From a virus: 23,768 nucleotides of DNA. A program made the position numbers and the translations under genes. The first letter of the stretch is position 1. Each line of letters opens with the position of its first letter. A model generated the notes under the pieces. It worked only from the letters and a program-made list of their open reading frames with translations. It made no database searches and was not told the origin of the DNA. Shown piece by piece: positions 12,750 to 16,092 of the stretch. The stretch covers positions 1-23,768 of the IMG/VR virus record IMGVR_UViG_3300047310_000475, one strand, 5' to 3'.

Positions 12750-13739
12750 ATGGCTTCGCCAGGGATTGGCGCCAAGAGCTACCTGCAGTGGGGCCGCGAG
12801 GTCACGTGGGCCACGGTGGCTGTGGCGACCAAGCGCATCGGCATCCTGAGCCAGAACTTCGAGCAGGTGGTGACGCAGGTGCCGGACGCCACGCTGACCG
12901 GCTCAATCATCCAGCGCGGCATCATCAACGTGGCCGAGAAGTGCGTCGGCACGGTCGAAGCCTACATGACCTACAACGAGCTGATGATGTTCTGGGACGG
13001 CGTGATGGGCACGGCGACCTACGGCTCGAACGGCGGCGTGGACACGGGCGCCAACCCGTTCAGCCACACGTGGGCGACCGAGAAGGAGTTCTACAACTCG
13101 TTCACGCTTGAGCTGATCGAGGGCAACATCCCCTCGACCAAGTGCCAGCGCGTGCTGGGCGCCAAGGTGAAGATGATCACCGTCTCCGGCGACGCGGGCG
13201 GCATCGTCAAGGTCAAGATCGACTTCGTCGGCCAGAAGATGCAGACGAACCAGACGCCGACCGGAGCGCTCTCCGCCGCGGCCCCGATCCTGACGCTGAC
13301 CTCACACGGCGTGAGCATGACCGATGGCAGCGCGACGGACGCCGCGGCCGACATCGTCATCAAGCACTTCGAATACACGATCGAGGCCGGGCTCGACGAC
13401 AGCCGGTTCGACTGCTCCAGCTACTACATCCTGGAGCCGATCCGGAACGGGGTCTCCAAGGCCACGATCAAGGTCAACAAGGAGTTCCGCACGAAGTCGG
13501 CCATGGATGACTACATCGCCGGCACGCTCCGCACGCCGATCCTCAACCTCGTCCGCGATTCGAACTACGAGCTCGACTTCAAGATCGACAGCGCGGTCGT
13601 GAAGAAGGCGAAGAGCGACGTCAACGGCTTCGGCATCCTCTTCGAGGAGGTCGAACTGGAGTCGATCGAGAACGTGTCGGGCGGCAGCCATGGCTGCGTC
13701 GCCGTCATCAAGAACATCCAGGCCACCATCACCACCTAG
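12750..13739 (+). CDS. Major tail (tail tube) protein
   Basis: This 329-aa protein is the expected tube subunit. It has the Gly-Ala-Lys-Ser-Tyr-Leu-Gln-Trp-Gly-Arg-Glu N-terminus typical of tube proteins of this class, many beta-strand segments (for example Val-Lys-Val-Lys-Ile-Asp-Phe-Val-Gly near residue 155), a polar loop-rich middle, and a second beta domain with Phe-Glu-Tyr-Thr-Ile-Glu-Ala near 210. Two duplicated beta-barrel-like halves are likely. The position just before the chaperone pair and tape measure is diagnostic. The start is certain (GGGAGGAG at 12736-12743). Confidence 0.85.
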   Translation: MASPGIGAKSYLQWGREVTWATVAVATKRIGILSQNFEQVVTQVPDATLTGSIIQRGIINVAEKCVGTVEAYMTYNELMMFWDGVMGTATYGSNGGVDTGANPFSHTWATEKEFYNSFTLELIEGNIPSTKCQRVLGAKVKMITVSGDAGGIVKVKIDFVGQKMQTNQTPTGALSAAAPILTLTSHGVSMTDGSATDAAADIVIKHFEYTIEAGLDDSRFDCSSYYILEPIRNGVSKATIKVNKEFRTKSAMDDYIAGTLRTPILNLVRDSNYELDFKIDSAVVKKAKSDVNGFGILFEEVELESIENVSGGSHGCVAVIKNIQATITT

Positions 13740-13747
13740 GAGGCAGC

Positions 13748-14248
13748 ATGTCCGCCACGGATGGCAAGACGAGCCCGGCGAGTGACTTCGCCGCGCCCGA
13801 GACGAAGCTCTTCGACCTCCCGCGCCCCGGGGCGGGCGGGAAGGTGCTGACTGTACAGATCCGCACCGTCCCGCCGATCGACCTCATCACGGCCATGGAG
13901 GGCGTTCCGGAGCTGAACCAGGCGCCGGTCCCGGACCTCTCGGGGACGGCGACACCGGCGAAGAGCTTCGAAGCCATGCGGCAGGTGCTGCTCGAGCAGG
14001 AGGCGCCGCAGCGAAAGATCGTGGCGCTCGCCGTGCTCGACCCCGTCTTCACGTTCGAGACGCCTCCCGAGGCGGGCAAGGCGCCGTGGCGGAACCTACA
14101 TAGCGACAACCAACTCGCCCTGATCGCAGAGATCATGGACTTCTCGGGCTTCTCGAAGAAGCCGGCGCCCGTAGCGACCGCCCCAGCGACGCCGGCGGAG
14201 GCGGCAACGGCGTCGGCCGAGTCGTTTCGCGGAGTGGCTCCGGAGTGA
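13748..14248 (+). CDS. Tail assembly chaperone, G-like (unshifted product)
   Basis: This 166-aa protein starts at ATG 13748; GGAGG (13739-13743) overlaps the tail tube stop. Its place between tube and tape measure and its organisation (a globular N-terminal part of about 130 residues followed by a Pro/Ala-rich linker) match lambda G-type chaperones, which bind the tape measure during tail assembly. The unshifted stop is TGA 14246-14248. A second coding segment without a start codon follows in the +1 frame, so a minority of ribosomes probably make a G-T fusion of about 255 residues. Confidence 0.78.
   Translation: MSATDGKTSPASDFAAPETKLFDLPRPGAGGKVLTVQIRTVPPIDLITAMEGVPELNQAPVPDLSGTATPAKSFEAMRQVLLEQEAPQRKIVALAVLDPVFTFETPPEAGKAPWRNLHSDNQLALIAEIMDFSGFSKKPAPVATAPATPAEAATASAESFRGVAPE
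14225..14228 (+). promoter_or_regulatory. Candidate +1 ribosomal frameshift site (TTT C)
   Basis: In the chaperone frame the codons read TCG TTT CGC. A P-site tRNA-Phe on TTT can slip one base forward onto TTC (14226-14228), also Phe and its preferred codon, then continue with GCG GAG TGG. Any shift must occur between the +1-frame stop TAG at 14172-14174 and the 0-frame stop at 14246. CGGAG (14230-14234) and CTCCG (14238-14242) could form a small downstream hairpin. A -2 shift at another site would reach the same frame and cannot be excluded. Confidence 0.6.
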
Positions 14249-14516
14249 CGGCTATCGGGGACAGCGGGCGGCAGCCCTCGCGGACGAGCTCTGGGAGATC
14301 GCCAGGCTCCCGCGGCTGCCGCACGAGGTCATCCCGGGCCTAGAGGCGCTGCCCAAGTTCAAGGCGTACCAGCTGGCAAGGGAGATCTACAGGGCGAGGA
14401 AGCGCTGGCGGCAGCACTGGGTCGAGGAGCTGCTGAAGAGCATGGACGAGAAGAAGGATCCGATGGGCGTGGGGCGCGTGATCGCGCTCCTCGGGGTGGG
14501 CGAGGTCGGGAGGTAG
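14226..14516 (+). CDS. Tail assembly chaperone, T-like extension (made only by frameshift)
   Basis: Reading from TTC 14226 gives Phe-Ala-Glu-Trp-Leu-Arg-Ser-Asp-Gly-Tyr and a further run of about 86 residues, ending at TAG 14514-14516. The segment is helical and charged, with Trp-Glu-Ile-Ala-Arg-Leu-Pro and Trp-Arg-Gln-His-Trp-Val-Glu-Glu, as expected for the C-terminal T domain that binds the tape measure. It has no ATG, GTG or TTG at its front, the next upstream in-frame stop is at 14172, and the other frames here are not protein-like. It is thus best read as the extension of the upstream chaperone. Joined product: about 255 residues (13748-14227 plus 14229-14513). It ends 4 nt before the tape measure start. 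Confidence 0.7.
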   Translation, partial: FAEWLRSDGYRGQRAAALADELWEIARLPRLPHEVIPGLEALPKFKAYQLAREIYRARKRWRQHWVEELLKSMDEKKDPMGVGRVIALLGVGEVGR

Positions 14517-14520
14517 TCGG

Positions 14521-16092
14521 GTGGCGAACGTCATCGAGATCCTGATCCAGGCGAAGGACCAGGCGACCGCGGTCATGGCGAACGTCTCGAAAGAGGCGTC
14601 TGGCCTGAACGCGACCCTCGCCCAGTTCGGCGGCACGGGCGGCATCGCCCTCGCCGCAGCCGCCGGGATGGGCACGCTCGCTCTCGCCGGCGCCGAGCTC
14701 GCGAAGCACTACTCCGAGACCGCCCGGCAGGTGCTGAACGTCTCTAACGTCTCGGGCGTCTCGACCGTCAACATCCAGGCGATGCAGCGGGCGGTGGTGA
14801 ACGCCGGCGGCTCCGCCGAAGAGGTCGGCCTCGCCTTCCGGCGCCTCGCCGTCGGGGTCGAGAACAACAAGGCGGCGCTGGCGGCGCACAACATCACGGC
14901 GCGCGACACGTGGGGCGCGATGTTGCAGGTGGCCGACGCCATGGAGAAGGCGAAGACCGGGATCGAGCGCTCGGCGCTCGCGACGACCGCCTTCGGTCGC
15001 GGTGGGTCCGGGTTCGTGGCCGTCCTCTCGCAGGGCTCGAAGGCGCTGCTCGCATTCCGGGACGAGATGGTTCACCTGGGCGTCGTGATGAGCGATTCGC
15101 AGCTGCAGAAGTTCCTGCAGCTCCACGAGCGGATCGACCAGCTGAATGCCTCCATGGAGGCGATGAAGCTCCAGCTCGCCTCGTTCATCGTGCCGCTGAT
15201 GCTCAAGTTCTTCGAGGTGGTCGAGGCCATCCGGATCCGGGTAGCGCTGCTGGTGCCGACCGTCTCACTCCTGAACGACACGCTCGATGCACTGAGCGAG
15301 AAGTTCAACAACGCCTTCGCCGGCTCCAAGTCGCACGAGGCGATGGACCGCGTCAAGCAGGACGCCATGGCCATGGCTGCCGCGGTGGTGAAGGCGGACG
15401 CGGACATCAAGGCCGCCAAGGCGTTTGCGGCGCTCTTCACCAACGTCGGGCAGGGCGATGCGGGGGGCGCGGGCGGAGCAAGTTCCGGCGACCTCGGCGC
15501 CACGCTCCGCTGGCAGAACCGCGGCAGCACTTGGGGCACGAACCAGGGCACGCTCGGACAGGGCCCCGGGCAGCTGATGATGCAGATCGGCCCGATGGTG
15601 GACAAGGCGAAAGAGCACCTGATGACCTTCCGCGAGCTGATGCTGCGGGTCGCCGGTGATATCACGCAGGCGTTCAACACGATCGGCCAGTCGCTCTCGA
15701 ACAGCATCCTCGGCGTGTTCATGAACCTGACGAACCGGGCGCAGACCTTCCGGACCGCTATGGTCACGATCTTCGATGGCATCCGGGACGGCATCCTCCA
15801 GGCGATCGGAGAGATCGTCGCAGCCGCGGTGACGCGCGCGTTCCTGAAGATCCTCGGCATCGTGCTCTCGAGCGTGACGGGGAATCCGTTCTTCGCGGTC
15901 GCAGGCGGGGCGCTGCCGGGCGGTGGTGGTCCCGTGGGCGTGCCAGGCGCGAACTCGACCTCCGGCGGCGGCGGGAATACCTACATCATCCAGACGATTT
16001 CGGCGAAGGACGTCCTCTCCTCGCTGATCGATCCACGCGGGCAGATGCGGAGTGCCAACTCGCGGCTCTCCGAGATCGCGGCGGTGAGCTGA
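14521..16092 (+). CDS. Tape measure protein
   Basis: This 523-aa protein sets tail length and passes out of the tail tip with the DNA. GTG 14521 has GGGAGG (14508-14513) 7 nt upstream. It starts with the family-like Val-Ile-Glu-Ile-Leu-Ile-Gln-Ala-Lys-Asp and is mostly helical and Ala-rich. There is a hydrophobic patch at about 38-62 and a longer one near 430-470 (Ile-Leu-Gln-Ala-Ile-Gly-Glu-Ile-Val-Ala-Ala-Ala), which are common in tape measures and may insert into membrane. A Gly-rich, flexible C-terminus follows. At about 0.15 nm per residue the tail would be roughly 75-80 nm, short for a siphovirus. Order after the chaperones and before the distal tail gene confirms the call. Confidence 0.88.
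   Translation: MANVIEILIQAKDQATAVMANVSKEASGLNATLAQFGGTGGIALAAAAGMGTLALAGAELAKHYSETARQVLNVSNVSGVSTVNIQAMQRAVVNAGGSAEEVGLAFRRLAVGVENNKAALAAHNITARDTWGAMLQVADAMEKAKTGIERSALATTAFGRGGSGFVAVLSQGSKALLAFRDEMVHLGVVMSDSQLQKFLQLHERIDQLNASMEAMKLQLASFIVPLMLKFFEVVEAIRIRVALLVPTVSLLNDTLDALSEKFNNAFAGSKSHEAMDRVKQDAMAMAAAVVKADADIKAAKAFAALFTNVGQGDAGGAGGASSGDLGATLRWQNRGSTWGTNQGTLGQGPGQLMMQIGPMVDKAKEHLMTFRELMLRVAGDITQAFNTIGQSLSNSILGVFMNLTNRAQTFRTAMVTIFDGIRDGILQAIGEIVAAAVTRAFLKILGIVLSSVTGNPFFAVAGGALPGGGGPVGVPGANSTSGGGGNTYIIQTISAKDVLSSLIDPRGQMRSANSRLSEIAAVS

Follow-up and report, generated by a model that had tools for sequence, protein, structure and literature searches.

To our knowledge, nearly all frameshifts studied in tail chaperone genes are of the -1 type. 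A +1 event was called the unusual form in the original prediction for the locus described here, and rightly so, its precedents being HSTV-2, reported as very likely +1 (PMC5009743), and the HF1 group, for which Dyall-Smith and colleagues put forward TTT-CGC as the site of a +1 shift in 2020 (PMC7230728). UUU_Ynn is especially +1-prone in bacteria, as stated in PMC5009743 with reference to Fu and Parker 1994, and UUU_C with a CGN codon in the A site is a predicted +1 class in eukaryotic viruses, represented by PA-X (PMC3498833). G/GT chaperone production by frameshifting, including +1 at UUU_CGC, is already a known or proposed kind. We read the present locus, with a probability of about 0.92, as a lambda G/GT-type tail assembly chaperone pair with a +1 slip at TTT_C, where the long tail-building helper protein would almost certainly be made by a one-base forward slip.

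Two overlapping frames between the tail tube and tape measure genes

The window, that is the whole stretch of DNA analysed (23,768 bases of a soil virus recorded in IMG/VR, 67% G+C), carries the late module of a tailed phage: terminase, portal, capsid, adaptor, tail tube, chaperone locus and tape measure. Two overlapping ORFs lie between the tail tube and tape measure genes (Table 1), the position expected of a G/GT pair, and relatives show the same arrangement of tube, two ORFs and tape measure. No sheath gene was recognised among the window proteins scanned, despite the tube gene. The strong AGGAGG ahead of the chaperone gene suggests that the host is probably bacterial. Further upstream, portal protein and a Phage Mu F-like head morphogenesis domain form a single 741-aa ORF (window:5231-7456), and a group 1 glycosyltransferase gene (window:4269-5234; Pfam PF13692, E=1.8e-21) lies between terminase and portal, inside the head-packaging module.

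Table 1. Features of the putative chaperone locus and its neighbours (window coordinates)
Feature	Coordinates	Strand	Evidence or remark
Major tail tube protein, upstream neighbour	12750..13739	+	Pfam Phage_tube_2 E=2.6e-17; PHROG 290 E=9.8e-23
Zero-frame ORF, putative short tail assembly chaperone (gpG-like), 166 aa	13748..14248	+	position; relatives; low-confidence model with Foldseek matches
Candidate shift site TTT_CGC, P-site UUU to UUC, A-site CGC	14225..14230	+	identical in 8/8 distinct family sequences
Zero-frame stop TGA	14246..14248	+	7 codons after TTT
+1-frame extension (putative gpT-like), 95 aa + stop	14229..14516	+	start codon absent before 14442; selection; relatives
Tail tape measure protein, downstream neighbour, GTG start	14521..16092	+	PHROG 8462 tail length tape measure protein E=5.9e-13

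The zero-frame ORF starts at ATG 13748, with AGGAGG just before it, and ends in GAG TCG TTT CGC GGA GTG GCT CCG GAG TGA. The second frame lies at +1; bounded upstream by TAG 14172-14174 (open from 14175), it runs to TAG 14514-14516 and reads, after TTT C, GCG GAG TGG CTC CGG AGT GAC (A-E-W-L-R-S-D). The coordinates first given for the upstream TAG, for the zero-frame TGA (14246-14248) and for TTT C (14225-14228) were all found correct. The segment had also been described as lacking any start codon, which holds for the first 71 codons of the extension, where ATG, GTG and TTG are absent, and fails beyond them, the first ATG/GTG codons occurring at 14442, 14463, 14469 and 14478. Initiation at 14442 or later would lose the most conserved part of the extension. 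We propose that the gpT-like extension is produced only as a fusion after the shift.

Neither the zero-frame ORF nor the extension had a match in Pfam or PHROG. The two parts were folded separately. The AlphaFold model of the short form was weak (mean pLDDT 56); its named Foldseek matches were mostly tail assembly chaperones, with E values of about 0.02-0.04, and one uncharacterised match reached 9e-4. The T part gave a helical model (pLDDT 73) for which Foldseek returned no match. The pair is identified as putative tail assembly chaperones from gene order and G/GT architecture.

Conservation of the site and the frame under selection

Viral contigs were scanned for relatives of the T part, the chaperone, the tube and the head-tail gene lying upstream. 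The resulting family set comprises eight distinct sequences (the window, L003, L005, L007, L008, L010, L022 and L060); identical or near-identical copies were also found and were not counted as distinct. No relatives were obtained from INPHARED by tblastn with both parts, nor from GTDB genomes searched by T and tube. A pattern-scan match in L054 was rejected as chance, lying on the antisense of a large gene.

Conservation of the site in relatives had been put forward as a check, and TTT CGC was present at the same place and in the same frame relation in all eight sequences. Around it, much varies: the preceding codon is TCG, ACG, GAC or GAG, any of TGA, TAG and TAA may serve as zero-frame stop, which falls at the seventh codon after TTT in seven sequences and at the sixth in L060, and both proteins diverge while TTT CGC stays invariant. 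Downstream identity among the eight ranges over 49-100%, and between contigs the +1-frame proteins share 49-88% identity. Identity of the T part to that of the window goes from 85% down to 49%, so that the site is retained in no fewer than three deep lineages. Immediately after it, FAxWL is conserved in the family. TTT itself is rare: outside the site, the eight sequences use it for 11 of the 355 Phe codons (~3%) in their tube, chaperone, T and tape measure genes, and it accounts for 2 of 149 in 13 window genes, one of the two being the site itself.

Selection was estimated as dN/dS by the Nei-Gojobori method for pairs of family sequences, each frame separately. Upstream of the site, values were 0.09-0.62 in the zero frame versus 0.60-3.4 in the +1 frame, the latter being higher in every pair. 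Downstream, the +1 frame gave 0.16-0.58 and the other two frames 0.84-4.3. This pattern indicates that the coding frame under purifying selection switches from zero to +1 at the site. The open +1 frame, 113 codons long, is by itself unremarkable at 67% G+C; in these comparisons it is conservation, rather than frame length, that goes beyond chance.

A distant relative, L027 (tube 24% identical), carries at the same gene position an A-run (TCA AAAAAAAAA) allowing a -1 shift (L027:5024-5640). It therefore seems that the shift changes direction over evolutionary time, with the two-product design retained.

Direction of the proposed slip and its signal

From the frames, site conservation, selection and gene order, which were read from the sequence, we infer slippage, its rate and the functions of both products as follows. 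Most ribosomes would translate 13748-14248 into the 166-aa short chaperone. In a minority, Phe-tRNA on UUU 14225-14227, with CGC awaiting in the A site, would slip +1 onto the better-matched UUC; having skipped one nucleotide, these ribosomes would stay in the +1 frame (...AESF-AEWLRSDGY...) and yield a fusion of 255 aa. If the roles resemble those in lambda, the tape measure protein would be coated by the short form, and tail tube subunits would be brought in by the extension. TTT is the sole zero-frame codon in the overlap whose +1 neighbour (TTC) is read by the same tRNA, and the UUU to UUC move gives tRNA-Phe a perfect, stronger pairing. CGC is a common codon in window genes, which weakens the argument of a slow A site. 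At the level of sequence, the window has UUU_C in the P site, CGN in the A site and a predicted +1-frame product. The original prediction, that tRNA-Phe makes a programmed +1 move off UUU onto UUC, finds support in the comparative evidence.

A -2 shift, as in phage Mu and several haloarchaeal records, would reach the same frame and had been left open by the original prediction; moreover, the later GenBank chaperone features of HRTV-14, -15, -25 and -27 (L036, L038, L041 and L042, respectively) are labelled 'putative programmed translational -2 frameshift'. However, tRNA-Phe would then need to pair two bases back with CGT, ACT or AGT in the family, or AGT, AAT or CCT in the haloviruses, and it pairs with none of the family triplets. 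Since the codon ahead of TTT is variable, there is also no selection for -2 pairing, and we regard such a shift as very unlikely. Independent initiation of the T-like segment, or stop-restart, would have to use a non-standard start codon. ATC and CTC codons do occur in frame, and termination-reinitiation is common in phages, but no start at a conserved position was seen near the zero-frame stop in any relative, ATG, GTG and TTG being absent before 14442 in the window. FAxWL right after the site is conserved, and this explanation, which does not account for the invariant rare TTT, appears scarcely credible. A single metagenomic contig might also carry an error, such as an indel from assembly or sequencing, or the gene might have decayed. 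The relatives refute this: seven other distinct sequences, which come from several metagenomes and are 49-85% identical, show the same frame relation, and both frames are under purifying selection. The switch of selected frame excludes assembly or sequencing error as well as decay, and the chance of such an origin is practically nil.

Stimulatory signals for the +1 slip were sought in the family sequences. No conserved RNA structure was found directly 3' of the site, the 73 nt after it folding no more stably than shuffled sequences (z -0.4 to +1.4). A hairpin 57-117 nt after TTT was strong in L007, L008, L010 and L022 (z -3.1 to -5.5) and absent from the window, L003 and L005; confined to one clade and with little covariation, it may act as a stimulator in that clade or may result from codon choice. 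A GGAGG-like stretch about 25-30 nt upstream was rejected as an internal Shine-Dalgarno, its distance being too great for the prfB type. An Rfam search gave a single sub-threshold match, which was set aside. With no stimulator found, the signal seems to be UUU_CGC itself, of the influenza PA-X type.

Comparison with described frameshift systems

A close likeness is with the Hafunaviridae (HF1, HF2, HSTV-2, HRTV-5, -14, -15, -25 and -27), which share with the window the overlap between tube and tape measure, the +1 frame and a TTT CGN near the zero-frame stop. HSTV-2 reads AAG TCC TTT CGC AGA GAC GGG GGC GGC GAG TAG, i.e. UCC_UUU_CGC; TTT CGC stands at the corresponding place in HRTV-5, -14, -15 and -27, HF2, Serpecor1, Hardygib1 and the IMG/VR sequences L032-L034, and TTT CGT in HRTV-25. 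No annotated +1 chaperone was found in phiCh1 and Salgado, which were also compared. The Hafunaviridae are contractile-tailed archaeal viruses, whereas the window virus has a tube, no recognised sheath and a likely bacterial host. Homology was not detected by hhalign between halovirus and window-family G and T parts (probability 0.9 and 0.5%), so that the same signal either converged or was inherited from before similarity was lost. The zero-frame peptide at the site is A-x-x-F-R in the window (14216-14230) and in L029 and L036-L043 (AESFR, AEDFR, AKSFR, AKKFR); common to the window family and the haloviruses, it possibly reflects a nascent-peptide or linker constraint. The -2 label on HRTV-14, -15, -25 and -27 is probably a mis-annotation, since their TTT CGN site permits re-pairing at +1 only, which suggests that the haloarchaeal '-2' records merit re-examination as +1.

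Phage lambda gpG/gpGT resembles the window in gene order and in a short chaperone with a low-frequency fusion ahead of the tape measure, but slips by -1, the window using a proposed +1 slip on UUU_C. A -2 shift takes phage Mu gpG/GT into the same relative frame (PMC3498833); pairing in the window permits only +1. Listeria PSA, A118 and A500, and SPP1, also use a +1 slip in phage tail genes; there it occurs at CCC_UGA or CCC_UAA, a Pro codon beside a stop, in the major tail protein and not in a chaperone pair. UUU_C in the P site and CGN in the A site are shared with influenza A PA-X (UCC_UUU_CGU) and related +1 sites of RNA viruses; a further likeness is that no 3' structure was found in the window family. 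PA-X, however, belongs to eukaryotic translation, and in the window family the E-site codon is not conserved. HSTV-2, like PA-X, has UCC before UUU_CGN. Mutation of this UCC in PA-X lowered and did not abolish the shift (PMC3498833), so the E-site UCC is not an essential feature of the class.

In the literature compared, no bacterial tail chaperone was found to be reported with UUU_CGN; the sequences of the 350 annotated forward sites of the SEA-PHAGES data (PMC10885494) stand outside this comparison, and bacterial priority is therefore not claimed. For annotation, when a -1 site is missing, TTT CGN should be sought close to where the ORF separating tube and tape measure genes ends. Tentatively, and at somewhat less than even odds, UUU_CGN may be a recurrent, self-sufficient +1 signal of tail chaperones, arisen independently in bacterial and archaeal viruses or descended from a very old ancestor, and acting on both ribosomes with no RNA structure. 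A second unrelated UUU_CGN family suggests that a signal of four to six bases suffices to set a two-protein ratio in prokaryotic viruses, as in PA-X. Taken together, the comparisons support well the view that the window represents a sequence-unrelated new family, probably of bacterial viruses, of a rare known kind and not a new mechanism.
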